A DNA stretch of 64,000 bases, taken from contig NZ_QUNO01000007.1 of assembly GCF_003387475.1 (NCBI RefSeq), positions 124,001 to 188,000 on the forward strand, read 5' to 3'. The number at the start of each line of letters is the position of its first letter. Position 1 is the stretch's first letter. This DNA comes from Kutzneria buriramensis. GTDB lineage: Bacteria > Actinomycetota > Actinomycetes > Mycobacteriales > Pseudonocardiaceae. The position numbers and the translations under genes were made by a program. Below the pieces are notes generated by a model that saw only the letters and a list, made by a program, of their open reading frames with translations, did no database searches and was not told the DNA's origin. This document shows positions 16,901-64,000 of the stretch, in pieces.

Positions 16901-17102
16901 GGCCTGGCCGGACGCGCTGCTGGCCGAGCCGGACGTCGCCGAGCTGGCGCAGGCGTGGTTCGACGCGCTGCGGGCGCTGGCCCGGCACGCGGTCGACCCG
17001 GCGGCCGGCGGCCTCACGCCGTCGGACCTGTCGATCGACCTCGCGCAGGCCGAGATCGACGAGCTCGAGGCCGAGCTGGAAGCCGAATTGGGGGATCTGT
17101 AG
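4938..17102 (+). CDS. NRPS B: C-A-T-C-A(N-MT)-T-C-A-T-E, three modules
   Basis: A 4054-residue synthetase. The ATG at 4938 overlaps the preceding stop and starts directly at the C-domain motif ([13 protein letters not shown]). Domains by residue: C 1-445, A 467-954, T 967-1039, C 1057-1510, A 1517-about 2400 with an embedded methyltransferase at 1974-2234 (SAM motif VLEIGVGSG), T 2417-2484, C 2502-2950, A 2967-3464, T 3477-3544 (LGGDS), epimerase 3564-4030 ([10 protein letters not shown]). All C domains keep HHxxxDG. Pocket codes: DAYFWGVTFK (Val/Ile-like, tentative), DILQLGQIWK (Gly group; with the N-methyltransferase, sarcosine) and DVGMIGAVCK (unassigned). The acidic helical tail ending ELEAELGDL resembles a donor docking segment. 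A rare TTA Leu codon lies at 5100-5102 (residue 55). The stop shares one base with the next GTG start. Confidence 0.96.
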
Positions 17103-50766: not shown

Positions 50767-50806
50767 TTCCCCGCCGCACGGGAACGCTTCCCCTAGAGCC
50801 GGGGAA
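50767..50806 (+). promoter_or_regulatory. Tandem TTCCC/GGGAA operator array of the hydrazine operon
   Basis: Two inverted repeats stand in tandem: TTCCC (50767) with GGGAA (50780-50784), and TTCCCC (50788) with GGGGAA (50801-50806), 21 bases apart. The inner pair also reads as GGGAA, CGC, TTCCC. A TACTCT box at 50818-50823 could be the -10. The same array is found in front of the cupin gene at 63744-63783. Confidence 0.6.
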
Positions 50807-50885
50807 ACCCGCCTTCCTACTCTCGTTGTGGATCCGGACCGGCGTTGCCCGCGGACTTCCGATGACGACAAATCGAGGGGGAAGT

Positions 50886-52166
50886 GTGCCCGACCAAGAC
50901 GTTGGTGTGCTGGCGATCGGGGCTGGACCGGCCAACCTGGCGCTCGCCGTGGCCATCGAGGAATCCGGCTCCCGCGAGCTGGCCGACAGCACCCTGTTGC
51001 TGGAACAGAGCCCGGACATCAAGTGGCAGCGCAACCTGCTCATGCCGTGGGCCCGCAGCCAGGTCTCGTTCCTCAAGGATCTGGTGACGCTGCGCAATCC
51101 GCGCAGCAAGTACTCGTTCCTCAACTTCCTGCACGACCAGGACCGGCTGGACGAGTTCGTCAACCTCGGCACGTTCCACCCGTTCCGCTGGGAGCTGTCC
51201 GACTACCTGCAGTGGGTGGCGAACTCGCTGGAGCGGGTGCGGATCCGTTTCGGCGCCCGCACCGAGCGGGTGGAGCCGCGCCTGAGTCCGGAAGGGACGG
51301 TCGTCGGCTGGACGGTCACCCTCGCCGGCGGCGACACGATCCGCTGCCGCGACCTGGTGATCGGCGGCGGCCGGGCGCCGAAGGTGCCCGCGGTCTTCGC
51401 CGACCTGCCGCCCGATCGCGTGATCCACAGCGCCCAGTACTTCACCCGCATCGCGGACATCCCCAAGGACCGGCCGATCCGGCCGGTCGTGGTCGGCGGC
51501 GCGCAGAGCGCGGCGGAGATGTTCATGGCGCTGCACGAGAACCTGCCGCTGAGCGAGCCGACGATCGTGGTCCGCTCGATCGGGTTGCAGAACTACCAGA
51601 CGAGCAAGTTCGTCAACGAGCTGTTCTTCCCGTCCTTCGTGGACGACTTCTACGACAGCCCGGCGGAGGTCCGGGCGCAGATCCTCGACGAGATGCGGTT
51701 CACCAACTACGCGGGCCTCGCGCCGCCGTTCCTGGACGAGCTCTACACGATGCTGTACCGGCAGAAGCGGTTGGGGCCGCGGCGTTCCACCGTGCGGGCG
51801 ATGACCGAGGTGGTCGGCGCGCGGGTCGACGGCGACGAGGTGGTGCTCGACCTGCGCGACCGCAGGAGCGGCAAGGTCGAGCCGCTGCGCTGCGACGTGG
51901 TCCTGCTCGGCACCGGCTACGACTCCCGGATGCCGCCGATCGTGCGGGACCTGGCCGACCAGATCGGCATCGACGACATCACGGTCAGCCGGTGCTACCG
52001 GGTGGACATCGGCGACTCGGCGTGGGGCGCGGTGTACCTCCAGGGCGTCAACGAGAAGACCCACGGCATCGCCGACTCGCTGATCAGCGTGCTGGCCCAC
52101 CGGTCCCAGGACATCCTCGCCGATCTGGTGGCCCGCCGGGCCACCGCGGAGCTGAGGAGCGCCTGA
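50886..52166 (+). CDS. L-lysine/L-ornithine N-hydroxylase (FAD, NADPH)
   Basis: 426 residues of the SidA/IucD/PvdA family of flavin N-monooxygenases: FAD site AIGAGPANLALAVA at the N-terminus, WQRNLLMPWARSQVSFLKDLVT with the usual substrate-side residues, NADPH site VVGGAQSAAEMF near 205, and the C-terminal DVVLLGTGY. The family hydroxylates the side-chain amine of Lys or Orn. In hydrazine-forming clusters this gene supplies N6-hydroxylysine to a MetRS-like enzyme, exactly the next gene here (TGATG overlap). The GTG at 50886 has GAGGGGGA upstream; an in-frame ATG at 50862 would add eight residues. Lys versus Orn cannot be settled by eye. Confidence 0.9.
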   Translation: MPDQDVGVLAIGAGPANLALAVAIEESGSRELADSTLLLEQSPDIKWQRNLLMPWARSQVSFLKDLVTLRNPRSKYSFLNFLHDQDRLDEFVNLGTFHPFRWELSDYLQWVANSLERVRIRFGARTERVEPRLSPEGTVVGWTVTLAGGDTIRCRDLVIGGGRAPKVPAVFADLPPDRVIHSAQYFTRIADIPKDRPIRPVVVGGAQSAAEMFMALHENLPLSEPTIVVRSIGLQNYQTSKFVNELFFPSFVDDFYDSPAEVRAQILDEMRFTNYAGLAPPFLDELYTMLYRQKRLGPRRSTVRAMTEVVGARVDGDEVVLDLRDRRSGKVEPLRCDVVLLGTGYDSRMPPIVRDLADQIGIDDITVSRCYRVDIGDSAWGAVYLQGVNEKTHGIADSLISVLAHRSQDILADLVARRATAELRSA

Positions 52167-53707
52167 TGGCCCGCGAACGGCTGATGGTCATGTCGCCGGC
52201 GCCGACGGCCAACGGCGACCTGCACCTGGGGCACGTGGCCGGCCCGTTCCTGGCCGCCGACGTCTGCACCCGGTACGCGCGGGCGACCGGCCACGACGCC
52301 ATGTTCGGCACCGGCATGCACTTCACCCAGAACTACATCGTCACCGCCGCCCGCCGGCTGGGCACGAGCCCGGAGGAGCTGCGGCTCCGCTCGGCCGACG
52401 AGGTGGCGGCGACGCTCGCCGCCCTGGGCATCGGGGTGGACGCGTTCGGCTGCGTCGACGACCGGTTCGTCAAGATGGTGCTGAACTTCTACGATCGCCT
52501 GCACCGCGACGGAAAGCTCCGGCTCAAGGCGGTGCCCTTCCCGTACCTGCCGAGCACGGGGGAGTACCTCACCGACTCCTACGTGCGGGGCGGCTGCCCG
52601 TACTGCCTCGCCGACGGATGCGCCGGGCTGTGCGAGAACTGCGCCCACCCGGTGCTGCCGGGGGAGCTGATCGACCCGAGGTCCACGGCGGATCCGGCGG
52701 CGCCGGTGGAACTGCGGGACGTGGACGTGCTGGTGCTCCCGCTCGAGGAGTACCGGGAGGAGCTGGTCGCGTACTTCGACCGGATCCGGCCGACCATGCG
52801 GCCGCGGCTCGCCCGGCTGATCGATGACATGCTGTCCCGCCCGCTGGCGGACTTCCCCGTCACACAGCCGATCTCGTGGGGAATTCCGGCGCCGTTCGCG
52901 GAGACCCCGGGCCAGGTGATCTACGCGGACCTGGAGGGCATGCCGTGGAGCATGTACTGCACGGCGACCGCCGCGGAGAGCCGCGGCGCCGTGCTGGGCG
53001 ACGACGACGAGCTGTGGCACGCCGACAGTGGCACCAGGGTCGTCTACTTCCTCGGCCTCGACGCCAGCTTCCCATTCGCGGTGGTCGGCGTGGCGATGCT
53101 GCTGGCGCACGGCGGCTACCTGCTGCCGGAGCAGTGGATCACCAACGAGTTCTACGAGCTGGACAACGAGAAGTTCTCCACCAGTCGCGGGCACGTGGTG
53201 TCGGGCCGGGAACTCGCGGCCGAGGTGCCGCGCGACCTGATCCGGTTCTACCTGTCGGCGACCGGGCCGGAGTTCCAGCGCACCAACTTCACCCGTGCCG
53301 CGTTGACCAAGGTGGCCGGAACCCGCTTGGTGGAGCCGTGGAACCGGGTCGTGTCCAAAGTGGATGAGATTGTGGGGCTCGGCGCGCTGCCGGTGTCCGA
53401 GCGGTCCCGCTCGGCGGCCGGCCGGATGGTCGCGCAGTTCACGGCCGCGTTCGAACTCCCGGGGTTCAGCCTGGCGGCGGCCGCGTTCGCGCTCGTCGAA
53501 CAGTTGGCGCGGCTCGACCGCTGGCCGGTCGGGTCGGACGACGCCGGCGACTTCTGCCACGAGGTCGAGGTCTTCCTGCGGTGCGCGGCGCCGATCCTGA
53601 TCGACCTCGCGGCGAAGGCCCTGCCGGACACCGCGATCCCGCTCCGACCGGACGCCGTCGAGGTGGTGCCGGCCCGCCTGCCGCGGCTGACCGGCGCCGG
53701 TTCCTGA
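52166..53707 (+). CDS. Methionyl-tRNA-synthetase-like hydrazine synthetase subunit
   Basis: 513 residues of class I MetRS ancestry. It keeps the HIGH-type motif (NGDLHLGH, residues about 15-22), a zinc-knuckle-like CPYCLADGCAGLCENC, and a KMSKS-type KFSTSR. Catalytic-core features such as ISWGIPAPF and YFLGLDASFPF are present, with a short anticodon-domain-like helical end. In Spb40, ForJ/PyrN and related proteins such a domain, fused to a cupin, joins N6-hydroxylysine and glycine through an N-N bond with ATP. Here there is no cupin fusion; a stand-alone cupin lies at 63348. Flanked without gaps by the N-hydroxylase and an FAD oxidase, as in those clusters. The alternative, a resistant duplicate MetRS, is less likely in this context. 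Confidence 0.85.
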   Translation: MARERLMVMSPAPTANGDLHLGHVAGPFLAADVCTRYARATGHDAMFGTGMHFTQNYIVTAARRLGTSPEELRLRSADEVAATLAALGIGVDAFGCVDDRFVKMVLNFYDRLHRDGKLRLKAVPFPYLPSTGEYLTDSYVRGGCPYCLADGCAGLCENCAHPVLPGELIDPRSTADPAAPVELRDVDVLVLPLEEYREELVAYFDRIRPTMRPRLARLIDDMLSRPLADFPVTQPISWGIPAPFAETPGQVIYADLEGMPWSMYCTATAAESRGAVLGDDDELWHADSGTRVVYFLGLDASFPFAVVGVAMLLAHGGYLLPEQWITNEFYELDNEKFSTSRGHVVSGRELAAEVPRDLIRFYLSATGPEFQRTNFTRAALTKVAGTRLVEPWNRVVSKVDEIVGLGALPVSERSRSAAGRMVAQFTAAFELPGFSLAAAAFALVEQLARLDRWPVGSDDAGDFCHEVEVFLRCAAPILIDLAAKALPDTAIPLRPDAVEVVPARLPRLTGAGS

Positions 53708-54696
53708 TGGCCGGCGTGCTGATCGTCGGCGCCGGCGTCGTCGGCCTGGTCACGGCGATCGAGTGCGTGCTGGCCGGCCATCGGGTCACGGTGCTGGAAC
53801 GCGGCGACATCCCGAACCCGGAGTCCACCTCGTTCGATCAGCACCGGGGGATCCGGATGCTCGATGTGAACGACCCGGTGGCGACCTGGCGGATGCTCGG
53901 GGCGAGTCGCCGGTGGCGCGAGTTGGAATCGCTGCTGGACACGAGGTTCTACCGGCGGGTCGGCATGGTCACCGCATGGCCGCTGGTGGATGTCGCTTCG
54001 GTGACCAAGGCCGCGAGCAGCGCGGGCGTGTCGCTGGAACCGGTCGATGTGCCGCATATGACGATTCCGCAGGGCACCGTTGCCCTGTCCGAGACCGACG
54101 GCGGCGTCCTGTTGGCCGAGCGATTCCTCCGTGCGGCAACGGACTGGTTGTCCAGGCAGCCCGCGGTGACGCTGAAGCGCCGGAGCCCGGTGCGGAGTGT
54201 CCACAGCGGACTGGGCGCGGACATCGTGCTGGTGGCGGCGGGACCGTGGTCGAGGAACCTGGTCGACTATCCCGTCCGGCTGTATCGCCAGGCCATGGTG
54301 TACCTCCGTCCGCCGGCGAACTTGGCGCGGTGGTGGGAAAACGCCCCGGCGGCCGGCCGGATCGGCCCGGACGGACGGGCCTGGCTGCTGCCGCCCGGCG
54401 ACGGCACCCTGCTCAAGATCAGTACGGACGCCGCGTGCCAAGAGGTGGACGAGATCGAGGCCACGACTTCGCAGGCCTTGGTGGACAAGGTACTCGGCGC
54501 CGGGATGGTGCCCGATGTGGACAGATACACCGTGGTGGCGGCCGGCCAGTGCCACTACGCCGATGCGAACGGGCCCGTGCTGGCCGAGGTGGCGCCACGG
54601 GTGTGGGCACGGGTGGCATGCGGCGGCACCGGCTTCGCCACCGCACCACTGGTCGCGAACCAGATCGTCGAACTGCTGCGGGAGGAGGCGGCATGA
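53707..54696 (+). CDS. FAD-dependent amine/D-amino-acid oxidase-like enzyme
   Basis: 329 residues of the DAO fold: dinucleotide site VLIVGAGVVGLVTAIECVLAG at the very start, VLERGDIPNPESTSFDQHRGIR, and the C-terminal ARVACGGTGFATAPLVANQIVE. In hydrazine-forming pathways the equivalent enzyme (Spb39 type) oxidises the N-N adduct of lysine and glycine and frees hydrazinoacetate plus a semialdehyde. Its position right after the MetRS-like gene (TGATG overlap) supports that role. It is shorter than typical D-amino-acid oxidases by little. Start: ATG 53707. Confidence 0.85.
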   Translation: MAGVLIVGAGVVGLVTAIECVLAGHRVTVLERGDIPNPESTSFDQHRGIRMLDVNDPVATWRMLGASRRWRELESLLDTRFYRRVGMVTAWPLVDVASVTKAASSAGVSLEPVDVPHMTIPQGTVALSETDGGVLLAERFLRAATDWLSRQPAVTLKRRSPVRSVHSGLGADIVLVAAGPWSRNLVDYPVRLYRQAMVYLRPPANLARWWENAPAAGRIGPDGRAWLLPPGDGTLLKISTDAACQEVDEIEATTSQALVDKVLGAGMVPDVDRYTVVAAGQCHYADANGPVLAEVAPRVWARVACGGTGFATAPLVANQIVELLREEAA

Positions 54697-55940
54697 GTGA
54701 CAGCGGCGTGCTCGCCGTGCTGAAGGCGACGCCGAACCCGGTGCGCTACCTGTTCGCAGGCATGATCATCAACCAGCTGGGCGCGTTCGTCCAGACGTTC
54801 CTGGTGCTGTACCTGACGTTCCGGGGTGTGCCGGTCGCGGTGGCCGGCATCTGTGTGGCCGCGTACAGCGTCGGGTCGATCTTCGGCAGCATGGCCGGCG
54901 GCGAGCTGGCCCACCGGTTCGGCTCCCGCGCCACGATCGCGGCGGCCATGACCTGCTCGGGGCCGCTCGTCGCGACGATCCCGTTCGTCAGCGGGCAGGG
55001 CACGCCGTGGGCGTTGTTCGGGGTGGTCGCGCTCGCCGGTCTGGTGACTCAGGCGTACCGGCCGGCGGCGGCGTTGCTGCTCGCCGACCTGATGCCGGAG
55101 CAGCACCGGGTCATGGGTTTCTCGATGATGCGGATCGCGTTGAACATCGGCGCCGCGGTGGCGCCGATGCTGGCCGCACTGCTCATCCTGCTGGACTGGG
55201 ACCTGCTGTTCTGGGCGGACGGCGCGACCGCCCTCGTGTGGGCGCTGCTGGCGTTCGTCCTGCTGCCGAAGGGAACCACGGCCCGGCGCGAGGCGGAACC
55301 CGCCGTGCCGGCCACGAGTGGCCGCGCGGTGTATGCGGTGTTGCTCCGGGACAGACGCTTCCTGTGCTACCTGCTGGCCGCGATGTTCGGCATGATCGTC
55401 TACGCCGGGTCGATGGCCGCGCTGCCGCTGGAGATCGTCGCCGACGGCTATCCGACCGGCCTGTACAGCGCGGTGCTGATGATCTCCTCGATCGTGCTGA
55501 TCACCTGCGAACTGAAGATCACCACGTACATCGTGCGGATCCCGAAGCGGCTCGCGGGGTTCTCCGGGAACGTGGTCACCGGGCTCGGGTTCGCACTCTA
55601 CGGACTGATGGCCGTGCACCCGGTGTTCGTGGTCGTCGGGGCGCTCCTGGTGGTGGCGGGCCTGATGATCCACGGCCCGAGCACGTCGTCCCACCCGGCG
55701 ACCTTCCCCGCCCACCTGAGAAGCCGCTACATCGGGACGAGGGAGTCCGTCATCGGGTTCGCCGCGGCGACCGGCCCGATCGTGGGCCTGTCCATCCGCG
55801 GCTGGCTCGGCGGGCCCGTGTTCTGGGCATTCTGCGCCCTGTTGTCCGTCGCGGCCGGCTCGCTGCACCTGTACGGCCTCAAGCAGGTCGCCGTGCCGAA
55901 TCCCCGGCCCGAGCCGGAAGTCGTGGGAGAGCGATCATGA
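54693..55940 (+). CDS. MFS transporter, probable product exporter
   Basis: 415 residues with about twelve hydrophobic segments. The MFS loop motif GGELAHRFGSRATIA follows the second segment. It is embedded in the operon with ATGA overlaps on both sides, so it is made with the biosynthetic enzymes and most likely exports the final hydrazine compound or an intermediate, giving self-protection. No sequence feature reveals the substrate. Confidence 0.88.
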   Translation: MSDSGVLAVLKATPNPVRYLFAGMIINQLGAFVQTFLVLYLTFRGVPVAVAGICVAAYSVGSIFGSMAGGELAHRFGSRATIAAAMTCSGPLVATIPFVSGQGTPWALFGVVALAGLVTQAYRPAAALLLADLMPEQHRVMGFSMMRIALNIGAAVAPMLAALLILLDWDLLFWADGATALVWALLAFVLLPKGTTARREAEPAVPATSGRAVYAVLLRDRRFLCYLLAAMFGMIVYAGSMAALPLEIVADGYPTGLYSAVLMISSIVLITCELKITTYIVRIPKRLAGFSGNVVTGLGFALYGLMAVHPVFVVVGALLVVAGLMIHGPSTSSHPATFPAHLRSRYIGTRESVIGFAAATGPIVGLSIRGWLGGPVFWAFCALLSVAAGSLHLYGLKQVAVPNPRPEPEVVGERS

Positions 55941-57253
55941 GTGAATCCAGTGGTGTGCTGCTGGTCGTCGGCAGCGGGCTGAAGGTGTACCGCGAGTACC
56001 TGGTCAGGTCCGTGCACCGGCGGGCCAAGGCCGCCGGCCTCGGGCTGGTGCTGCTGAACAACCTCAAACCGACCTGGCAGCGCCAGTACTTCGACGAGAT
56101 CATCGTCAGCAACGTGTTCGACCCGGACGAGATGACCGCGACCGCGCGGGCGGTCGCCGACCGGCATCACATCGTCGGCCTGATGTGCTGGGACGAACCG
56201 GTCGTGCTGGCCGCCGGGGAGCTCGCCGCCGAGCTCGGCGTGCCGGGGCTGAGCGTGGACGGTGTCCGGGGCTGCCGGGACAAGAACCGCACCCGGACCG
56301 TCCTCACCGCCGAGGGGCTGCTGCAGCCCGGGTACGCGCTGACCACCAGCCTCGCGCAGGCCCGTGCGGAGGCGCGACGGATCGGCTACCCGGTGGTTCT
56401 CAAGCCACGGGCGATGGGGGCCAGCATCGGCGTGGTCTTCGCCGCGGACGAGTCCGAACTGGACGCGGCCTTCGGCGTCGCGATGGGCGCCGCCACCATC
56501 GATCCCGGCCGCTACCGCGCGGGCGCGATCGTCGAGGGGTACGCGGCCGGGCCGGAGATCAGCGTCGACGCCGCCCTGCACAAGGGCGAGTACCTGCCGA
56601 TGTTCGTGGCCCGCAAGCAGACCAGTGACCAGCCGTACTTCGAGGAGGTCGGCCACGTCGTCGACGCGGCCGACCCGCTGCTGCACGACACCGAGCTGAT
56701 GGGCGCTCTGGCGCGGGCGCACCGCGCCCTGGGCGTGGAGGACGGCATCACCCACTCCGAGGTCCGGCTCACCGACCGCGGGCCGTTGATCATCGAGGTG
56801 AACGGCCGGCTCGGCGGCGACCTGATCCCGTTCCTCGGCAGGACCGCCACCGGCATCGACCCCGGCGAGGTGCTGTTCGACGTCACCGTCGGGCACCGGC
56901 CGGACACCACCCCGACCCGGCGGGCGGTGGCCGGCATCCGGTTCGGATACCCCGAGCTGGACTGCCTGGTCCACTCGGTCACGGTCCCGACCGAGGCCCC
57001 CGGCCTGGTCACGGCGTCGCCGATGATCGACGCCGGGACCACGCTGCGACTGCCGCCGGGCGGCTACCTGGCCAGGCACTCGTTCGTGGTGTGTCAGGCC
57101 GAGGATCGCCAGACCTGTTCCCACCGGCTGGACGCGGCCGCCGCCCTGGTGCGGGTCGACGCCGACCCGGTCGCCCCGCCGCCGCCCGGCGCCGCCTTCG
57201 AGATGCCTGCCGGCCTGCTCGACGTGGACGAAGAAGAGGGAGTTTCCGCATGA
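55937..57253 (+). CDS. ATP-grasp amide ligase 1
   Basis: 438 residues of the ATP-grasp superfamily: N-terminal pre-ATP domain (VLLVVGSGLKVYREYLV), ATP-binding YPVVLKPRAMGASIGVV, metal/phosphate residues in THSEVRLTDRGPLIIEVNGRLGGD, and an added C-terminal domain. The NGRLGGD end is typical of L-amino-acid ligases of the BacD/carboxylate-amine type. It would activate a carboxylate as acyl phosphate and couple it to an amine or hydrazine. Overlaps MFS and flavoenzyme genes by ATGA. The pair of ATP-grasp genes suggests two amide bonds made without an NRPS. Confidence 0.85.
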   Translation: MSESSGVLLVVGSGLKVYREYLVRSVHRRAKAAGLGLVLLNNLKPTWQRQYFDEIIVSNVFDPDEMTATARAVADRHHIVGLMCWDEPVVLAAGELAAELGVPGLSVDGVRGCRDKNRTRTVLTAEGLLQPGYALTTSLAQARAEARRIGYPVVLKPRAMGASIGVVFAADESELDAAFGVAMGAATIDPGRYRAGAIVEGYAAGPEISVDAALHKGEYLPMFVARKQTSDQPYFEEVGHVVDAADPLLHDTELMGALARAHRALGVEDGITHSEVRLTDRGPLIIEVNGRLGGDLIPFLGRTATGIDPGEVLFDVTVGHRPDTTPTRRAVAGIRFGYPELDCLVHSVTVPTEAPGLVTASPMIDAGTTLRLPPGGYLARHSFVVCQAEDRQTCSHRLDAAAALVRVDADPVAPPPPGAAFEMPAGLLDVDEEEGVSA

Positions 57254-58473
57254 CCGTGACCGAGCCCGCGCGCGTCGGCACGCCGATGACCGGTGCCGAG
57301 ATCATCGCCAATGCCAGGGCGCTCGCGCCGATCCTGCGCAAGCGGTCCGCCGAGATCGAGAAGAACCGGCGCCTGCCCGCGGACGTGGTGCAGATGCTGC
57401 GCGACGCCGGCGTGTTCCGGATGGGATTCAGCCGGGCCTGGGGCGGTCCCGAGATGACCTCGATGGAGCAGACCGAGGTCATCGAGGCGCTGTCCTACGG
57501 CGATCCGTCCGTGGGCTGGTGCGTGAAGCTCGGCTCGGACATCGGCCTGCACGCCAACTTCCTCGACCAGGACGAGGCGCGCCGCATGTTCCCGAGCATC
57601 GACATGCACACCGCCGGCGTGCTGCTGCCGGCCGGACGCGCGGACCGGGTGCCCGGCGGCTACCGGCTCAGCGGCCGGTGGGCCTTCGGCAGCGGCTCCA
57701 CCCACGTCGACTGGGTGGCCTCGGGCGCGTTCGTGTACGAGAACGGGGAGCCCTACGCCAGCCCGGACGGCAGCAACCCGCACGAGTCGCGCCTGTTCAT
57801 GGTGCCGCGCGAGCAGATCCAGAGCATCGACAACTGGCACACCATCGGGCTGTGCGGCAGCGGCAGCTGCGACTACACGATCACCGACGTGTTCGTCCCG
57901 GAGAACCACAGCCTCACCTTCGACAACCCGAAGGTGCCCAACGGACCGCTGGTGCAGCCGGACGTCATCCAGCGCAGCATGCCCGGCATCCCGCTCGGCG
58001 CCGCGCGGGCCGCGCTGGACCACGTCCGAGAGGTCGCCCGGACCCGCGTCGACCGGATGTCCGGCACACCCTGGCGGGACCTGGAGAAGGTCCAGATCAC
58101 GCTGGCCGAGTGCGAGGCGGACTACGTGACGGCCCGGGCCGGGGTGTACCAGGCGATGCAGCGCCAGTGGGACGTCACCGCCGACGGCGTCGGCACGCTG
58201 GACGACCTCACGCCCGACGAGCGGATCGCGCCGGCGCTGACCTGCTGGCAGGCGTTCCGGATGGCGCGGTCGGTGCTCCAGCGGCTCTGCGACCTGTTCG
58301 GCACCGCGACGATCTACTCGGACGACCAGCTGGGCCGGTGGCTGCGGGACGTGATGACCATGGGCCAGCACCTCACCGCGAAGGACCGGGCCACCCAGAC
58401 CGCCGGCGCGTACGTGCTCGGCGGCCGGCCCAGCGTGCGGTTCATGCTGGGCATCGTGGACAAGCCGAAGTAG
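57250..58473 (+). CDS. Acyl-CoA-dehydrogenase-fold flavoenzyme
   Basis: 407 residues of the acyl-CoA dehydrogenase fold, nearer to the group D flavin monooxygenases and N-oxygenases than to fatty-acid enzymes: VQMLRDAGVFRMGFSRAWGGPE, GDPSVGWCVKLGSD, YRLSGRWAFGSGSTHVDWVASGAF, WHTIGLCGSGSCDYTITDVFVPE. The usual catalytic Glu of CoA dehydrogenases is not evident. In this pathway it may dehydrogenate an N-N single bond to a hydrazone or azo group, or oxygenate nitrogen. In the published azaserine pathway a related enzyme oxidises a hydrazinoacetyl thioester; here no carrier protein is encoded, so the substrate would be free or amide-bound. Confidence 0.85.
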   Translation: MTVTEPARVGTPMTGAEIIANARALAPILRKRSAEIEKNRRLPADVVQMLRDAGVFRMGFSRAWGGPEMTSMEQTEVIEALSYGDPSVGWCVKLGSDIGLHANFLDQDEARRMFPSIDMHTAGVLLPAGRADRVPGGYRLSGRWAFGSGSTHVDWVASGAFVYENGEPYASPDGSNPHESRLFMVPREQIQSIDNWHTIGLCGSGSCDYTITDVFVPENHSLTFDNPKVPNGPLVQPDVIQRSMPGIPLGAARAALDHVREVARTRVDRMSGTPWRDLEKVQITLAECEADYVTARAGVYQAMQRQWDVTADGVGTLDDLTPDERIAPALTCWQAFRMARSVLQRLCDLFGTATIYSDDQLGRWLRDVMTMGQHLTAKDRATQTAGAYVLGGRPSVRFMLGIVDKPK

Positions 58474-58483
58474 AGGGACGCCG

Positions 58484-60208
58484 ATGAGCCGGGGACTGGT
58501 GGTTCTGGTCAACCCCAACAAGGTCCACCCGCCGATCGCGCCGTACGCGCTCGACGTGCTGACGACCTCGTTGGAGTCGGCGGACTTCGAGGTCGAGGTG
58601 CTGGACGTGACCTTCCACCGGGAGGACTGGAAGTCCCTGTTCGCCGAGTACTTCGCCGTCCGGGAGCCGCTGCTGGTCGGCGTGTCGGTGCGCAACCTCG
58701 ACACCGGCAGCGGGCTGGAGCAGCGGCCGTTCCTCGGCGAGCACAAGGAGATCGTCACCGAGATCATGCGGCTGACCGGCGCGCCGATCGTCGTCGGCGG
58801 CATCGGGTTCTCGGTGATGCCGTTCGCGCTCGTCGACTACTTCGGCATCGACTACGGCGTCAAGGGCCCCGGTGAGCACATCATCCGCGACCTGGCCGAC
58901 GCCCTGCTCACCGGCCGCGACACGGCGACGGTCGCCGGCCTGATCCGCAACACCGCCGACGGTGTCACCCGGGTGCCGCCCGCCGTGCTCGCCCGCACGG
59001 TGACGCTGTCGCCGGGCGGGCAGGACGAGGACCGGGTGTGGCAGGTCGAGACCGCCGGCCGGTACGTGCGGCGGTCCGGCCACAGGTACAAAGTGGACAA
59101 TCTGGAGTACTACCGGCGGGGTGGCATGGCGGGCATCCTCACCAAGAGCGGCTGCACGTTCCGGTGCGCCCACTGCGTCGAGCCCGACGCCAAGGGCACC
59201 CGGTTCGCGCGGCGCGACGTCGAAGCCGTCGTCGACGAGATGGAATCCCTGTGCGCGCAGGGAATCCTCGACCAGCACACCACCGACAGCGAGTTCAACC
59301 TGTCCATCGCGCACGCCAAGAACGTGCTGCGCGAGATCATCCGGCGCAAGCACGGCGACGGCGGCAATCCGTTGAACCGGCTCCGGTTGTGGATCTACTG
59401 CCAGCCGACGCCGTTCGACGAGGAGTTCGCGTCGCTGCTGGCGGCGGCCGGCTGTCGCGGTGTGAACGTCGGCGCGGACCACGTTCGGCCGGAGATGCTG
59501 CGGGACTGGAAGGTCACCGGCAAGGGCACCAACTACTACGCGTTCGAGGACGTGGCCGAGCTGGTGCGTCTGTGTGACGACCACGGCATCAAGACCATGG
59601 TGGAGGCGCTGTTCGGGATGCCGGGCGAGACCCGGGAGAGCATGGCCGACTGCGTCCGGGCGTTTCTGGCGCTGGACGCCACGGTGACCAGTTTCGGCTT
59701 CGGCCTGCGGCTGTTCCCGCATCACCCGCTGGGCAAGGAGATGGCGCGGCGGTGCGACGGCGTGCGCACGCTGCCCGGACTTCAGTCCAACGCCGCCAGC
59801 GGGCCGATCGTGCTCAAGCCGCTGGCCAAGTGTGCCAGCGTGGTGGAGTACGAACGGCAGTTCTTCTTCGACGAGCACGGCGAGTTCCGGCTCGTCTGCT
59901 ACTTCTCGCCGGACCTGGTCGAGGACGAGGGGACCGTGACCGATCCGGCCGGCCGCTGGCGCCGCTCGGTGGAACTGCTGTGGGAGCTGGTCGATCCGGC
60001 CGACCACCACCGCGTGATGCTGCCGACGATGTCCGGCGCCAGCGAGATCGACAGCAACTACGCCGACAATCCGCTGCTGACCAGCCTCACCGCGCTCGGG
60101 TACACCGGGGCGTTCTGGGCGCACTGGCGGGAGCGGGAGGACATTCTGCGGCGGGCCGCGGAGCGCGGCGATCGACAACCGAGAGACCTCCGAGGGGGAA
60201 GGCCATGA
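58484..60208 (+). CDS. Radical SAM enzyme with N-terminal cobalamin-binding-like domain
   Basis: 574 residues. A B12-binding Rossmann-like domain takes up about 1-190 (VVLVNPNKVHPPIAPYALDVL, PIVVGGIGFSVMP, YGVKGPGEHIIRDL). The radical SAM barrel follows, with CxxxCxxC at Cys224, Cys228 and Cys231 (SGCTFRCAHC) and MVEALFGMPGETRESM. Enzymes of this class methylate unreactive carbons or phosphorus, or rearrange rings. The strict DxHxxG cobalamin motif is not seen, so corrinoid use is not assured. It starts ten bases after the flavoenzyme gene and overlaps the second ATP-grasp gene. Its presence makes a carbon-methylated or ring-modified hydrazine product plausible. Confidence 0.85.
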   Translation: MSRGLVVLVNPNKVHPPIAPYALDVLTTSLESADFEVEVLDVTFHREDWKSLFAEYFAVREPLLVGVSVRNLDTGSGLEQRPFLGEHKEIVTEIMRLTGAPIVVGGIGFSVMPFALVDYFGIDYGVKGPGEHIIRDLADALLTGRDTATVAGLIRNTADGVTRVPPAVLARTVTLSPGGQDEDRVWQVETAGRYVRRSGHRYKVDNLEYYRRGGMAGILTKSGCTFRCAHCVEPDAKGTRFARRDVEAVVDEMESLCAQGILDQHTTDSEFNLSIAHAKNVLREIIRRKHGDGGNPLNRLRLWIYCQPTPFDEEFASLLAAAGCRGVNVGADHVRPEMLRDWKVTGKGTNYYAFEDVAELVRLCDDHGIKTMVEALFGMPGETRESMADCVRAFLALDATVTSFGFGLRLFPHHPLGKEMARRCDGVRTLPGLQSNAASGPIVLKPLAKCASVVEYERQFFFDEHGEFRLVCYFSPDLVEDEGTVTDPAGRWRRSVELLWELVDPADHHRVMLPTMSGASEIDSNYADNPLLTSLTALGYTGAFWAHWREREDILRRAAERGDRQPRDLRGGRP

Positions 60209-61482
60209 CGGACAAGCCCGTTGTCGTCGTCGGATTCGTGACGCCGGTGATGGCCGCGCTGGTCGAGTTCCAGCCGCCGGGTTCGGTGATCCTCGTCGAG
60301 GAGCCCGACGTGGTGCGCAAGCGGGACGTGCGCGGCAAGCTCGCCGGCTCGACGGTGCTACGTGAGCTGATCGAGTGGGAGTACTGCGTGGTCGGCCGGG
60401 CCGACGAGTTCTACAACGCCCACCCGGACCTGGACCCGGCCGCGGTCGTGCCGCTGCTGGAGTACGCCACGCCGTTCGCGGCCCGGCTGGCCGAGCGGTA
60501 CGGTCTGCCGGGCGCGAGCCTCGGCGCCGCGAACATCATGCGGGACAAGGCGTTGTTGCGTCAGGTCACCGCGGCCGCCGGCGTGCGCAATCCGGAGATG
60601 GCGCCCGCGCACAGCCCCGCGGACGTGCTGTCGTTCATGCGTCAGCACCCTGGCCCGGTCGTGTTGAAGCCGGCCAACCGGCAGGCTTCCGTCGGCACGC
60701 AGGTGATCTACGACCCGAACGACGTGCTCCGGGCGTGGCTGGCCTGCGTCGCCCAGGACGAGGGCATCCTCGTGCCGGATCGGGCCGTCGAGCTGCGGAT
60801 GCTCGTCGAGCGGTATGTCGCCGGCGACGAGTACAGCGTGGAGATGCTGGTGCAGCGCGGAAAGCCGGTGTTCGCCAACGTCACGGCCAAGCAGCTGTTC
60901 CCCGGATCGCGCCCTGTGGAGCTGGCGCACCTCGTGCCGGCGGACATCCCGCCCGCGCTGACCGCGACGCTGGGTGCGCAGACCGCCAGGGTCGTCGACG
61001 TCACCGGCTTCCGGGACGGGATCGTGCACTGCGAGTGGATCGTCGCCGACGGCGTGCCGCACCTGGTGGAATGCGCCGGGCGGTGCCCGGGAGACGGGAT
61101 CATGGAAATCATCGAGCGAGCCTATCCGGTGCCGCTGCTGCGTACGTACTTCGAGATCATGAAGGGCCGACAGCCGTCGGCGCCGATGCCGTCGAAGGCG
61201 CGAGGCGGCGCCGCCGTCCGGTTCGTGGCCGTCGAGCCCGGCACCGTCGATTCGATCAACGGAGTCGAGGCCGCGCGGGAGGCCCCCGGCGTCTTCCTCG
61301 CCGACGTGATGGTCGCCGCCGGCCACAAGGTCACCGGTCTGCGCAGCTCATGGGACCGCGCCGCCATTGTCATGGCCACCGGCGGCAGTGCGGCCGAGGC
61401 CCTCCGCCGGGCGGAAGTCGCCGCCGAGATGATCGATATCGACGTGCAGCCGCAGCGTTCCGTCGCCGACGCGGCGCGGTGA
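60205..61482 (+). CDS. ATP-grasp amide ligase 2
   Basis: 425 residues. ATP-grasp signatures: GPVVLKPANRQASVGTQVI (nucleotide loop), LVERYVAGDEYSVEMLV, and HCEWIVADGVPHLVECAGRCPGDGI (metal-binding end). It is only distantly similar to the first ATP-grasp protein, so the two should use different substrates. The ATG overlaps the radical SAM stop and has GAGGGGGA upstream. Last gene of the operon; a hairpin follows at once. Likely role: a second amide or hydrazide bond, or addition of an amino acid cap. Confidence 0.85.
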   Translation: MTDKPVVVVGFVTPVMAALVEFQPPGSVILVEEPDVVRKRDVRGKLAGSTVLRELIEWEYCVVGRADEFYNAHPDLDPAAVVPLLEYATPFAARLAERYGLPGASLGAANIMRDKALLRQVTAAAGVRNPEMAPAHSPADVLSFMRQHPGPVVLKPANRQASVGTQVIYDPNDVLRAWLACVAQDEGILVPDRAVELRMLVERYVAGDEYSVEMLVQRGKPVFANVTAKQLFPGSRPVELAHLVPADIPPALTATLGAQTARVVDVTGFRDGIVHCEWIVADGVPHLVECAGRCPGDGIMEIIERAYPVPLLRTYFEIMKGRQPSAPMPSKARGGAAVRFVAVEPGTVDSINGVEAAREAPGVFLADVMVAAGHKVTGLRSSWDRAAIVMATGGSAAEALRRAEVAAEMIDIDVQPQRSVADAAR

Positions 61483-61490
61483 TGCCACTC

Positions 61491-61527
61491 GAACGCCGTG
61501 CGGACCACCAGGGTTCGCACGGCGTTC
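61491..61527. terminator. Bidirectional terminator between the operon and the dioxygenase gene
   Basis: A 16-base stem beginning GAACGCCGTGCGG (one G-U pair, 5-base loop) ends with GCACGGCGTTC and is followed by AGTCTTGTC. It sits between two convergent stops. Confidence 0.85.
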
Positions 61528-61536
61528 AGTCTTGTC

Positions 61537-62781
61537 TCAACGTCGCCCGGCCGGACTTTCCTGCTCGTCGACGGCGACGGTCTCGAACACCGGTATCGTC
61601 CGCACGGCCTGCAGGTACGGCGTGCCCTCGGTGTAACCGGTGCCTGACGCCTCGCCGAGCATCCGGACCGCCAGCCGGTAGTGGGTGTTCCGCCACCGCA
61701 GCATGGCCCGCGCGAACTCCTTCATGGCACCGGTGAGCCGATCCCGGTCCGCGGAGGAAAGATCGCCCCGCACCGCCCGGTACCGCTCGTCGAGCGAGAC
61801 GAAGTGCCCGGCGAGCACCCGTTGGCGCACGTCGGGCACGGAGTGGAAGGCGGGGGAGTCGACGCGGAGCCGGTCCGGCTGCCGGCACAGGGCTTCCACG
61901 AGCTTGTAGTTGCGGGACTGGATGGCGCTCGCGCCGTCGGTGAACTGCCGGAACGTGCGGAACGACTCGACCTGCATGGTGGCCAGCATGGAGAACAGCG
62001 GCGCGGACTCGGCGAGCGCGGCGCGTGACGTGGTCAGGAAATGCACCGCGCGGTCGACGTCCAATTCGGACAGTGCGGCGACGACACCGCGCAGCTGCAC
62101 GGCAAGCAGGGCGAAGGTGGTCTCGAACGCCTGGAGCACGCGGAGGAACATGTACTCGTCGTGCGCGGTGTGGACGGGCAGCACGCTGAGGTCCAGGGCT
62201 TGCTGCTCGGCGAACGCGATGTCGGCCCGCACGACCGAGCACACCTGTCTGGCCAGGGCGACGGGTTCGGTGGCCGACAGGCCGCGGTCGAGGCTGAGCC
62301 GGCGCAGCGCGGGCTGAATCGCGCGCAGGCCGTGCTTGCACCGCTTGGTGACGAGTTCGGCACTCGGACGCATCTGGGGCAACAGCGTGGTGCGGCGGTC
62401 ACCGGCGGCGATCTCGAACGCCAGGGTGTCGGCGATGAGCTGCACGGTCAGCCGGTCACAGCGGGACCGCGCGAACGGCGCCTGGTCCATCGGATCGTCC
62501 ACAGCGGGCAGTGGAAGAAGCGAGAGCGCCAGGTAGGTCGGGTAGTCGTACTGCTTGTCCGGCTTGTCCAGCGCCGTGGACAGGAACGCCGAGAGCGTCC
62601 GGACATGCGTCCACGGCCCGCGCAGCGTCGGCAGCCGGTCGCGGGCCTCGGCCAGCAGGTCCAGCAGCTCCGTCGGCACGAAATGCTTGCCTACGCTGTG
62701 GAAGTGGCGCACGACGGCGTCGTAGGGAAATCTCTTCGGGTCCGGCGCGTGGAGCCAGGACTGTACCTCAGCTGTGAACAT
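61537..62781 (-). CDS. Tryptophan-2,3-dioxygenase-superfamily heme enzyme
   Basis: 414 residues with the TDO superfamily pattern: HDEYMFLRVLQAFETTFALLAV (compare HDEMLFI...HQAYE in TDO), SFRTFRQFTDGASAIQSRNYKLVEAL (compare FR..L..ASGFQS), and WRNTHYRLAVRMLGEASGTGYTEG split from PYLQA. The family includes tryptophan 2,3-dioxygenases and heme aromatic oxygenases of peptide-alkaloid pathways. It is longer than bacterial TDO (about 280), mainly at the N-terminus. It faces the hydrazine operon across a shared terminator. Substrate may be an aromatic amino acid joined to or feeding the product; this is inference. The ATG lacks a ribosome site, so it may be leaderless. Confidence 0.78.
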   Translation of the reverse strand: MFTAEVQSWLHAPDPKRFPYDAVVRHFHSVGKHFVPTELLDLLAEARDRLPTLRGPWTHVRTLSAFLSTALDKPDKQYDYPTYLALSLLPLPAVDDPMDQAPFARSRCDRLTVQLIADTLAFEIAAGDRRTTLLPQMRPSAELVTKRCKHGLRAIQPALRRLSLDRGLSATEPVALARQVCSVVRADIAFAEQQALDLSVLPVHTAHDEYMFLRVLQAFETTFALLAVQLRGVVAALSELDVDRAVHFLTTSRAALAESAPLFSMLATMQVESFRTFRQFTDGASAIQSRNYKLVEALCRQPDRLRVDSPAFHSVPDVRQRVLAGHFVSLDERYRAVRGDLSSADRDRLTGAMKEFARAMLRWRNTHYRLAVRMLGEASGTGYTEGTPYLQAVRTIPVFETVAVDEQESPAGRR

Positions 62782-63024
62782 GTGTCGTCACGATCCGATG
62801 CCTCGGGCGAAGGGGAGGACCGTGTCCGGGGCGAGCCGGCGCTGGATCTCCACCTGTCGCGGGGTGGTTGACGCCGTGGTACGGCAGGCAGGTCGGGGCC
62901 GGCGAGGTCCGCGCGCCGCCGGACACCGGCCGGCGGCGCGTGCGGCGGGAAGTGCTGGCACCGAGGTCGGCGCCGCTCGTGGTTCCGCGAACCGGGTGGG
63001 GAATGGCCTACCCGGTGGCCGTTC
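62782..63024. other. Gap upstream of the dioxygenase gene, with a hairpin
   Basis: No gene is supported in these 243 bases. Arms ACCGGGT and ACCCGGT at 62991-63016 (12-base loop) lie just after the end of the cupin operon and may terminate it. The promoter of the dioxygenase gene should lie near 62782-62850 on the minus strand but has no clear boxes. Confidence 0.4.
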
Positions 63025-63351
63025 TCACGGCTGGTCGGTCACCTCCACGATGTGGGAGATCCCGGTCGCCGCGTGTGGACCGTAACGCTCCCAAGCCTCG
63101 CGCAGCGTGATTCGGCCGTCCACGCCGATCTCCGGGGTGTTTACCGTGCGCCCGCAGATGACATCGCCGTCCGCGAGCACCATCGTGTATCCCATGTGGA
63201 GTGTCCCGTCCGGACGGCAGGACCCGGTGATCGACCCCCGCCGCACCGGCCCGCCGGCGAACTCCACCCACACGACGTCGTTCTCCTGGTGGTACAGGGC
63301 GATGGTGTCGCTGCCCGGCTTGCGGAACCGCCGGCCGTCGTAGTTGATCAC
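63025..63351 (-). CDS. Small conserved protein, often called N-acetylglutamate-synthase-like
   Basis: 108 residues: VINYDGRRFRKPG, YHQENDVVWVEFAGGPVRRG, and ADGDVICGRTVNTPE with a C-terminal LREAWERYG. The pattern (beta-rich repeats of about 25 residues) matches small proteins annotated as N-acetylglutamate synthase in databases, but no acetyltransferase motif is present, so I give no function. The GTG overlaps the cupin stop (GTGA), so the two are co-translated. Confidence 0.6.
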   Translation of the reverse strand: MINYDGRRFRKPGSDTIALYHQENDVVWVEFAGGPVRRGSITGSCRPDGTLHMGYTMVLADGDVICGRTVNTPEIGVDGRITLREAWERYGPHAATGISHIVEVTDQP

Positions 63352-63719
63352 GGCCGCCGCCCGAGGAACTCCTCGGACATGGCGTGGTCCCACCAGATCG
63401 CGTAGTAGGTGAAGTCCTGCTCGCCCTCGTTGACGAGCTGGTGCTCGACGCCGGCGGTCAGCCGCACGATGTCGCCGGCGCCGAACGGATCGCGCCGGCC
63501 GTTGCCGACGAGCTCGCCATGGCCGGCGATGCCGATCATGATCTCGTGCTCGTGGTGGCTGTGCGGATCGGACGCGTCACCCGGTCGCAGCAGGCACCAG
63601 GCGCCGCGGAACGGCGCGTCGAGGCCCGCCCACGGCTGGAGCAGCCTGAGATGCAGCCCGTACGCGCTGGTCAGGTTCTCGTGCTCGGCCCTGCGGAAGT
63701 CCACTTCGCCCATCACCAT
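63348..63719 (-). CDS. Stand-alone cupin, likely partner of the MetRS-like synthetase
   Basis: About 123 residues with both cupin motifs intact: GDASDPHSHHEHEIMIGIAG fits G(X)5HXH(X)3E(X)6G, and GDIVRLTAGVEHQLVN fits the second motif with its His. The end YYAIWWD recalls the cupin part of fused cupin-MetRS hydrazine synthetases, where a metal-binding cupin handles the N-hydroxy-amine adduct. It is the only cupin in the window and shares an operator array with the operon at 50886. The ATG at 63719 is chosen because TAGCCT ends seven bases upstream. A GTG at 63818 overlapping the LuxR stop would add 33 unconserved residues and remains possible. Confidence 0.72.
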   Translation of the reverse strand: MVMGEVDFRRAEHENLTSAYGLHLRLLQPWAGLDAPFRGAWCLLRPGDASDPHSHHEHEIMIGIAGHGELVGNGRRDPFGAGDIVRLTAGVEHQLVNEGEQDFTYYAIWWDHAMSEEFLGRRP

Positions 63720-63783
63720 ACCGTCGAGGCTATTCTCGACGGTTTCCCGGCCGATAGGGGATTCGTTCCCCATCGGCGGGGAA
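63720..63783 (-). promoter_or_regulatory. Cupin promoter with palindromes shared with the hydrazine operon
   Basis: TAGCCT (minus strand 63732-63727) is a -10 candidate for a leaderless message. It is overlapped by a perfect inverted repeat, arms CCGTCGAG and CTCGACGG (63721-63742). Upstream lie TTCCC (63744) with GGGAT (63758-63762), and TTCCCC (63766) with GGGGAA (63778-63783), 22 bases apart, the same array as at 50767-50806. Confidence 0.55.
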
Positions 63784-63814: not shown

Positions 63815-64000
63815 TCACCGACGGCCGAGGCCGGCTTCCCTTGCCAGCACTATGGCCTGGGCCCGATCGGCGACGCCGAGCTTGCCGAACACGACCGACA
63901 CCCGGTTGCTGATCGTCTTGGTGGCCAGCGAGAGTTCGCGGGCGATCACCAGGTTGGACTTGCCGGCGGCGATTCCCTCGAGCACATCGCGTTCCCGTTC
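63815..64000 (-). CDS. LuxR/NarL-type regulator, C-terminal 61 residues (partial)
   Basis: The gene runs off the right edge; its start and sensor domain are not in the window. The visible end is a LuxR-type helix-turn-helix: EREVLxxIAxGxSN-like ERERDVLEGIAAGKSNLVIA, then LATKTISNRVSVVFGKLGVADRAQAI. The VFGKLGV and DRAQAI segments are typical of NarL-family response regulators. It reads toward the cupin gene, so it is the nearest candidate to control the shared TTCCC/GGGAA sites. Confidence 0.85.
   Translation of the reverse strand, partial: ERERDVLEGIAAGKSNLVIARELSLATKTISNRVSVVFGKLGVADRAQAIVLAREAGLGRR

Follow-up and report, generated by a model that had tools for sequence, protein, structure and literature searches.

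Which compound is made by a gene cluster that combines an amino-acid N-hydroxylase, a methionyl-tRNA synthetase (MetRS)-like protein and a cupin with two ATP-grasp ligases and a putative tryptophan methyltransferase? Such a cluster lies towards the right end of a 64,000-nucleotide stretch of the Kutzneria buriramensis genome (contig NZ_QUNO01000007.1, positions 124,001 to 188,000), which we refer to as the window and whose numbering is used throughout. An original prediction, made from the sequence of this stretch, held that the cluster converts lysine and glycine into hydrazinoacetate and uses ATP-grasp ligases to attach this unit to other amino acids. With moderate confidence, we lean towards an orphan pathway in which a hydrazino acid would be joined, by ATP-grasp ligation without carrier proteins, to a unit derived from 2-methyltryptophan.

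Candidate hydrazine synthase genes in and beside an eight-gene run

Gene coordinates come from codon-position gene calling, with starts as chosen by the caller, and families were assigned by Pfam and NCBIfam profile searches. Eight genes run on the plus strand from 50886 to 61482, encoding in order an N-hydroxylase (NMO), a MetRS-like protein, a DAO-family oxidase, an MFS transporter, an ATP-grasp ligase, a flavoenzyme of the acyl-CoA dehydrogenase (ACAD) fold, a radical S-adenosylmethionine (SAM)/B12 protein and a second ATP-grasp ligase. Their junctions at the called starts are overlaps of 1 nt or 4 nt, save for two gaps (14 nt and 10 nt), so the eight genes likely form a single operon. A cupin gene and a gene of the tryptophan 2,3-dioxygenase (TDO) superfamily lie on the opposite strand; every gene named in the original prediction was recovered. 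This neighbourhood recurs in genomes of Amycolatopsis, Lentzea, Actinacidiphila, a further genus (g28) and the window's own genus, and its retention in many genomes argues for more than a chance association. Gene content, the likely operon, metal and cofactor motifs and linkage are matters of direct observation. The features are as follows.

50886-52166, plus strand: NMO, a flavin-dependent amino-acid side-chain N-hydroxylase of the lysine/ornithine type (PF13434, 284 bits)
52166-53707, plus strand: MetRS-like protein, presumed to be the part of a split hydrazine synthase that activates the amino acid (PF09334, 212 bits)
53707-54696, plus strand: DAO-family FAD oxidase, presumed to cleave a hydrazine-linked dimer (PF01266, 90 bits)
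54693-55940, plus strand: MFS transporter (PF07690, 116 bits)
55955-57253, plus strand: ATP-grasp ligase 1 (PF13535)
57250-58473, plus strand: ACAD-fold flavoenzyme, probably a group D type monooxygenase (PDB relatives; HsaA family below cut-off)
58484-60208, plus strand: putative TsrM-type L-tryptophan C2-methyltransferase, B12-binding with a radical-SAM fold (TIGR04428, 952 bits)
60205-61482, plus strand: ATP-grasp ligase 2 with an L-amino acid ligase C-terminal domain (PF13535 and PF18603)
61537-62781, minus strand: predicted TDO-superfamily heme enzyme (PF03301, 55 bits against a cut-off of 34.9)
63025-63351, minus strand: 108-aa protein of no Pfam family, predicted to form an eight-strand barrel
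63348-63719, minus strand: stand-alone cupin, presumed to form the N-N bond as the other half of that synthase (PF07883, on a longer open frame)
63815-64000, minus strand, continuing for 438 bases past the window (L002:3815-4438): LuxR-type response regulator (PF00072 and PF00196)

In published hydrazine synthases, a MetRS-like protein forms an aminoacyl ester of N-hydroxylysine without tRNA, a zinc cupin rearranges the ester to the hydrazine, and the cupin and MetRS-like halves may function as separate proteins (PMC8664883). The metal ligands of the PyrN cupin are His50, His52, Glu56 and His90, and the glutamate is essential (PMC8664883). The window cupin has H, H, E and H at offsets 0, 2, 6 and 40, which is the PyrN spacing, and every one of the 26 cupin genes called in related loci (23 different sequences, counting that of the window) has the same site. 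Because this metal site is kept, the NMO, the MetRS-like protein and the cupin together resemble a hydrazine synthase in split form. The best PDB-sequence matches of the cupin are 4rd7 and 4mv2, cupins of unstated function, and RHS1 (5UQP) is matched at an E-value of 2e-5. Although the window cupin lies about 10 kb from the MetRS-like gene, it is tied to the trio by other genomes, where NMO, cupin and MetRS genes are direct neighbours (L054-L063; L095-L098). The NMO and MetRS-like genes themselves overlap by 1 nt, giving the linked N-hydroxylase gene expected of a split synthase. Homologs of the NMO in closely related clusters are about 75-80% identical, and in close relatives the DAO gene directly follows that for MetRS.

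The MetRS-like protein carries the ATP-site motifs HLGH (at 20) and KFSTS (at 336). We rejected it as the housekeeping MetRS, as the genome holds a second, stronger MetRS (482 bits) in addition to a further match on contig C14. The 482-bit MetRS has an anticodon-binding domain, for which no match was found in the window protein; a fused glycine-type reference synthase (L158, described below) still shows this domain, so its absence here is weak evidence. The hydrazine-forming trio of the original prediction is thus upheld by the second MetRS, the PyrN-like cupin spacing and the precedent of split pairs (PMC8664883).

The 108-aa protein encoded next to the cupin has no Pfam or NCBIfam match. Its AlphaFold2 model is an eight-strand barrel (pLDDT 94.9) whose best PDB structure matches are avidins, at weak similarity (best E-value 1.8e-3, none below 0.001, TM about 0.7). 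Matches occur in 30 of 394 genomes of the class at E <= 1e-6, the window genome included. Four genomes besides that of the window (G317, G054, G180 and G024) hold strong homologs (E <= 1e-20), and in each a MetRS-related match lies no more than 7 kb away; the 25 further matches to the 108-aa protein are weak, at 31-37% identity. In G317, G054 and G180 the MetRS match belongs to an NMO-cupin-MetRS set. In G024 it is only 31-33% identical, like ordinary MetRS genes; there an ATP-grasp gene (44% identical to ligase 1) adjoins the homolog, and the short loci read gave no NMO or cupin match. The 108-aa protein is perhaps an unrecognised accessory component of split hydrazine synthases.

Tryptophan branch and proposed pathway

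The radical-SAM/B12 protein scored 952 bits against TIGR04428 (tryptophan 2-C-methyltransferase), for which the equivalog cut-off is 500, and 915 bits over residues 5-562 against the solved tryptophan C2-methyltransferase 6wte. It has a CX3CX2C motif at 224 and conserves the equivalents of Arg69, which lies under the cobalamin, and Glu273, an iron ligand. These features are linked to non-radical methylation of tryptophan, with the glutamate keeping SAM off the cluster (PMC8992657). Since the diagnostic features are kept, the protein is most likely a TsrM-type enzyme that supplies 2-methyl-L-tryptophan as a building block. The original prediction had seen a radical SAM enzyme performing a radical modification, which is not supported, as TsrM is described as a non-radical methylase of free tryptophan (PMC8992657); the tryptophan branch had been missed.

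A second TsrM homolog (67% identical) is present in the same genome (L072:10038-11738; G000:C5:360031-361737), where the neighbouring genes are different and encode a tryptophan halogenase, ketosynthases, an acyl-CoA dehydrogenase and a BTAD regulator. Fifteen genomes of one other family (f22; L029-L043, L073-L075) carry TsrM homologs at about 60% identity. No hydrazine gene was found within about 1.5 kb of these or, for the three with 20 kb read, anywhere in that stretch, and TsrM relatives therefore serve several pathways.

The TDO-family protein has His207, Arg278, His367 and Thr381 aligned with bacterial TDO motifs, and all four are invariant in six aligned sequences, the window's included. 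We take them to be the distal histidine, the arginine, the heme-ligand histidine and the threonine of the GTG motif, respectively. The canonical TDO model TIGR03036 gave 56 bits against an equivalog cut-off of 390.7, so the match to PF03301 places the protein at superfamily level only, as a predicted TDO-superfamily heme enzyme. Among 200 relatives searched, ten genomes (the window genome counted) have a match. We read the loci of five of the nine others; the remaining four (G112, G486, G467 and G593) hold weaker relatives. The five homologs are 62-72% identical over the alignment, and all adjoin a second TDO gene together with genes for a cyclase-family protein, an FAD hydroxylase and a class-V aminotransferase (L089-L093; the family assignments come from the L092 copies alone). 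In three of the five, a relative of the ATP-grasp ligase 1 gene of the window lies nearby. The L092 cyclase-family protein is arylformamidase-like, below cut-off, and the block is probably a kynurenine-type natural product cluster.

Both ligases belong to the ATP-grasp fold. ATP-grasp 1 matches PF13535 above cut-off and PF18603 below it, has the L-amino acid ligases BL00235 and BacD as PDB relatives and, at 82-84% identity, is the best conserved gene in four Amycolatopsis loci. In ATP-grasp 2, PF13535 and PF18603 (the L-amino acid ligase C-terminal domain) both score above cut-off. Pfam found no phosphopantetheine-binding or carrier domain in the ten cluster proteins scanned, which supports the earlier proposal of ATP-grasp ligation without carrier proteins. 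The ACAD-fold protein is closest in the PDB to Rv3094c, 3-HSA hydroxylase and XiaF, with entries named acyl-CoA dehydrogenase weaker, and its best NCBIfam match is the HsaA family, below cut-off; it is probably a group D type flavin monooxygenase.

For the pathway that we favour, we infer all substrates, the order of the steps and the product. The NMO would hydroxylate the side-chain amino group of a diamino acid (by analogy, lysine), and the MetRS-like protein would adenylate a second amino acid and esterify it onto the N-OH group. The stand-alone cupin would rearrange the ester to an N-N-linked dimer, and cleavage of this dimer by the DAO oxidase would release the free hydrazino acid; with glycine as the second amino acid, this would be hydrazinoacetate. 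Meanwhile the TsrM-type enzyme would form 2-methyl-L-tryptophan, which the TDO-family heme enzyme, the ACAD-fold flavoenzyme or both may oxidise. The two ATP-grasp ligases would couple the hydrazino acid to the unit derived from tryptophan without carrier proteins, perhaps including a third amino acid, and the MFS pump would export the product. A joint pathway is supported by the position of the TsrM gene inside the operon and its co-occurrence with the same genes in ten other clusters.

An ArsR/AHSA1 gene pair upstream of the operon was taken as the left border. On the right, the LuxR-type regulator adjoins the cupin or NMO in related clusters too, and an oligopeptide-type ABC transporter lies further downstream (L002:5497-11080; three of its five genes scanned). 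Near the left of the window, a nonribosomal peptide synthetase (NRPS) gene (17102-22267) with condensation, AMP-binding, carrier and thioesterase domains is preceded by two very large open frames and followed by a TauD-family gene, a BTAD regulator, ABC exporter genes and others; the stretch to 33186 is a separate cluster. This NRPS was rejected as an assembly line for the operon, as it ends 28 kb before the NMO gene. An ARAGORN call of a tRNA-Gly(ccc) at 61236-61312 on the minus strand lies inside the gene for ATP-grasp 2, has no Rfam tRNA match even at an E-value of 10, and was judged false.

Cluster relatives, counter-evidence and rival readings

We compared 28 clusters (24 plus four of ten further loci), the window included, with only the DNA fetched around each being read; overlapping loci double some counts among the 24. 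Both ATP-grasp ligases are present in 22 clusters, of which 11 have TsrM only, nine have only an FAD_binding_3 monooxygenase (FMO), none has both and two have neither. The 11 TsrM clusters are the window, six from Lentzea, one from Actinacidiphila, and G437, L152 and L153. A tenth FMO cluster sits at a contig end with no ligase visible. For one FMO copy (L066), kynurenine 3-monooxygenase is the closest relative in the PDB (228 bits) and VioC the top NCBIfam match (164 bits, far under the cut-off of 760). Because ten clusters carry a relative of kynurenine 3-monooxygenase instead of TsrM, a tryptophan-pathway unit may be common across the cluster family.

Within this family the window is of mixed character. 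All ten other TsrM clusters have two ACAD genes, and the fetched DNA of nine of them includes a berberine-bridge-like oxidase; in the window there is a single ACAD gene and no such oxidase, but the TDO-family gene is present. TsrM and a TDO-family gene occur together in the window only (none of the 27 others has the latter). In trees, the window ACAD falls with those of FMO-type clusters from Amycolatopsis and G497 (support 100/100), and the window MetRS branches, at weak support (88/80), as sister to the FMO group. The window thus resembles an FMO-type backbone in which TsrM and TDO stand in place of the FMO. Several TsrM clusters of Lentzea and g28 (L008-L010, L014, L020, L152, L153) have two N-hydroxylase genes and two ACAD genes. 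A more distant type (L016, L017, L019, L057-L060, L062, L063, L160, L161) has an NMO-cupin-MetRS set with an ATP-grasp gene either immediately after it or separated from it by one gene; several of these have a DDAH/arginine-deiminase-like gene and a member of the 108-aa family, and no TsrM was seen in them.

The identity of the activated amino acid was approached through two glycine-type references. L158 is azs-like by gene order and domains, which run ATP-grasp, MFS, NMO, a 349-aa protein, a cupin-MetRS-PP-binding fusion, a condensation/AMP/PP protein, an AMP ligase, a 97-aa protein and a GNAT/C45-like protein and match those published for the azaserine azs cluster (PMC10445470). L159 has a triacsin-like set of cupin-MetRS, AMP ligase, 87-aa protein, GNAT and C45-like protein. 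By analogy, both synthases would use glycine. At the MetRS column equivalent to Asp52 of E. coli MetRS, both references have Asp, whereas the window protein has His; at the Trp253-equivalent column, the Trp of the references is replaced by Asp in the window protein. Both positions belong to the amino-acid pocket.

Several observations weigh against the proposed pathway. Identities to the L158 and L159 counterparts are only 28% for the NMO, about 35% for MetRS and 27% for the DAO oxidase (E-value 0.006). In two clusters with both ligases (L154 and L155), the 20 kb read shows no gene for either TsrM or FMO. The alternation of TsrM and FMO amounts to one or two changes on the MetRS tree; we therefore dropped their mutual exclusion as strong evidence, and it offers suggestive rather than statistical evidence that both act on a tryptophan-pathway unit. 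In Lentzea aerocolonigenes NBRC 13195 (L025), the last gene of the cluster is followed, on the opposite strand, by a gene for a 1664-aa adenylation/condensation/carrier protein (L025:8392-13386), so assembly without carriers may not hold for every relative. Scans of the large genes at Lentzea loci L021 and L024 gave no adenylation, condensation or carrier domains; with such domains in one of three large genes, an NRPS is not a conserved part of the cluster, although it may take part in the pathway of the L025 strain. Finally, the TDO homologs of two same-genus genomes (G411 and G412) are far from the hydrazine clusters, and the window gene may therefore be a neighbour rather than a member; with no match in the other 23 clusters compared or in the ten further loci, it was rejected as a conserved core gene.

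The remoteness of the trio bears on the hydrazinoacetate product of the original prediction, under which a plain Spb38-40-type system would join lysine and glycine and the ligases would add other amino acids. We regard this as possible but doubtful. The DAO-family oxidase after MetRS speaks for it, as an oxidase of this kind accompanies the synthase in azs and tri clusters too (PMC10445470, PMC11705231), and glycine is the named substrate of several characterised hydrazine synthases, others of which use Ala, Ser, Glu or Tyr (PMC8664883, PMC11705231). Against it, comparison with L158 and L159 did not reveal close kinship for all three enzymes, and the azs/tri acetyltransferase, AMP ligase and carrier protein are missing among the cluster proteins scanned. 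With the low identities and the two changed pocket positions, membership of the trio in the hydrazinoacetate lineage is unproven; glycine may still be the substrate, and the product originally proposed is not supported.

The altered pocket could instead mean that the MetRS-like protein activates a tryptophan-derived amino acid, which would place the hydrazine on the alpha-nitrogen of 2-methyltryptophan and leave the ligases to add other amino acids. We consider this unlikely. Tyrosine-using hydrazine synthases exist (PMC8664883), and the Trp253-equivalent is Asp in all 11 TsrM clusters and His in all ten FMO clusters. However, 78 columns divide the two groups without exception, this one among them (the window agrees with the TsrM type at 38, the FMO type at 29 and neither at 11), so descent alone could explain it, and we rejected it as proof of the substrate. 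A bolder version, in which the MetRS-like protein is not a glycine enzyme, the N-N bond is formed on the alpha-nitrogen of 2-methyltryptophan or of a TDO-opened, N-acetyl-kynurenine-like derivative, and ATP-grasp ligation gives a hydrazino-tryptophan peptide with the avidin-like barrel protein as partner, is a long shot.

Also quite improbable are two neighbouring pathways at a shared locus, one making a hydrazine and the other, with TsrM and TDO, a 2-methyltryptophan/kynurenine product. The TsrM and TDO homologs found elsewhere with no hydrazine genes nearby would fit such a division, but TsrM lies between the ACAD and ATP-grasp 2 genes, with a 4-nt overlap to the latter, and among the same genes in ten other clusters. 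NMO-family N-hydroxylases also serve siderophore pathways, but an ester or siderophore-like hydroxamate with no N-N bond is very improbable for a trio whose cupin retains all four PyrN metal-site residues, the essential glutamate among them.

Comparison with known systems

The reading of a hydrazino acid ligated to a 2-methyltryptophan-derived unit draws on several described systems. PyrN/RHS1-type synthases share the NMO, MetRS-like and cupin parts and the cupin HxHxxxE...H motif with the window, and RHS1 with its MetRS-like partner is a precedent for the split form; the first His of PyrN and the window is Asp in RHS1, and a putative saccharopine dehydrogenase stands in place of the DAO oxidase in those clusters (PMC8664883). 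The azs cluster and the triacsin/s56-p1 hydrazinoacetate route have the NMO, FAD oxidase and MetRS/cupin in common with the window, and azs also has an MFS gene and one ATP-grasp gene (PMC10445470). Their cupin-MetRS is fused, whereas that of the window is split, and they add an acetyltransferase, an AMP ligase and carrier proteins, none of which is among the window proteins scanned. The window in turn adds TsrM, the TDO-family gene and a second ATP-grasp gene, at low overall identity.

The albofungin afn cluster has separate MetRS-like, cupin and lysine N-hydroxylase genes, as in the window, but uses an aromatic polyketide acceptor and an asparagine-synthase-like transferase instead of ATP-grasp ligases (PMC11705231). 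Negamycin and fosfazinomycin biosynthesis likewise places ATP-grasp enzymes alongside hydrazine chemistry, with an N-N bond formed from nitrite by a KinJ-type heme enzyme and not by a cupin/MetRS pair (PMC12154649). The window TsrM is a full-length match to TsrM of thiostrepton and 6wte, with the same cluster motif and the Arg69 and Glu273 equivalents; its operon with ATP-grasp ligases and candidate hydrazine synthase genes differs from the thiopeptide setting of thiostrepton TsrM. The combination of TsrM with a hydrazine synthase did not appear in the compared parts of the literature (including PMC13061610 and PMC13274452), and we found no published cluster with this gene set, or its product, in the open-licence literature, in agreement with the novelty originally claimed.

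Each enzyme family is thus known, and the combination and its likely product, with 2-methyltryptophan and a hydrazine, appear not to have been described as far as we have seen. If the reading is correct, a cupin/MetRS hydrazine synthase would be coupled to a TsrM tryptophan methyltransferase and carrier-free ligation, pointing to a family of N-N natural products in Actinomycetes not yet known. The cluster offers split, moderately sized enzymes for probing the amino-acid range of hydrazine synthases, as well as a TsrM-type enzyme in a ligase operon and a small, conserved, Pfam-less protein tied to such clusters.

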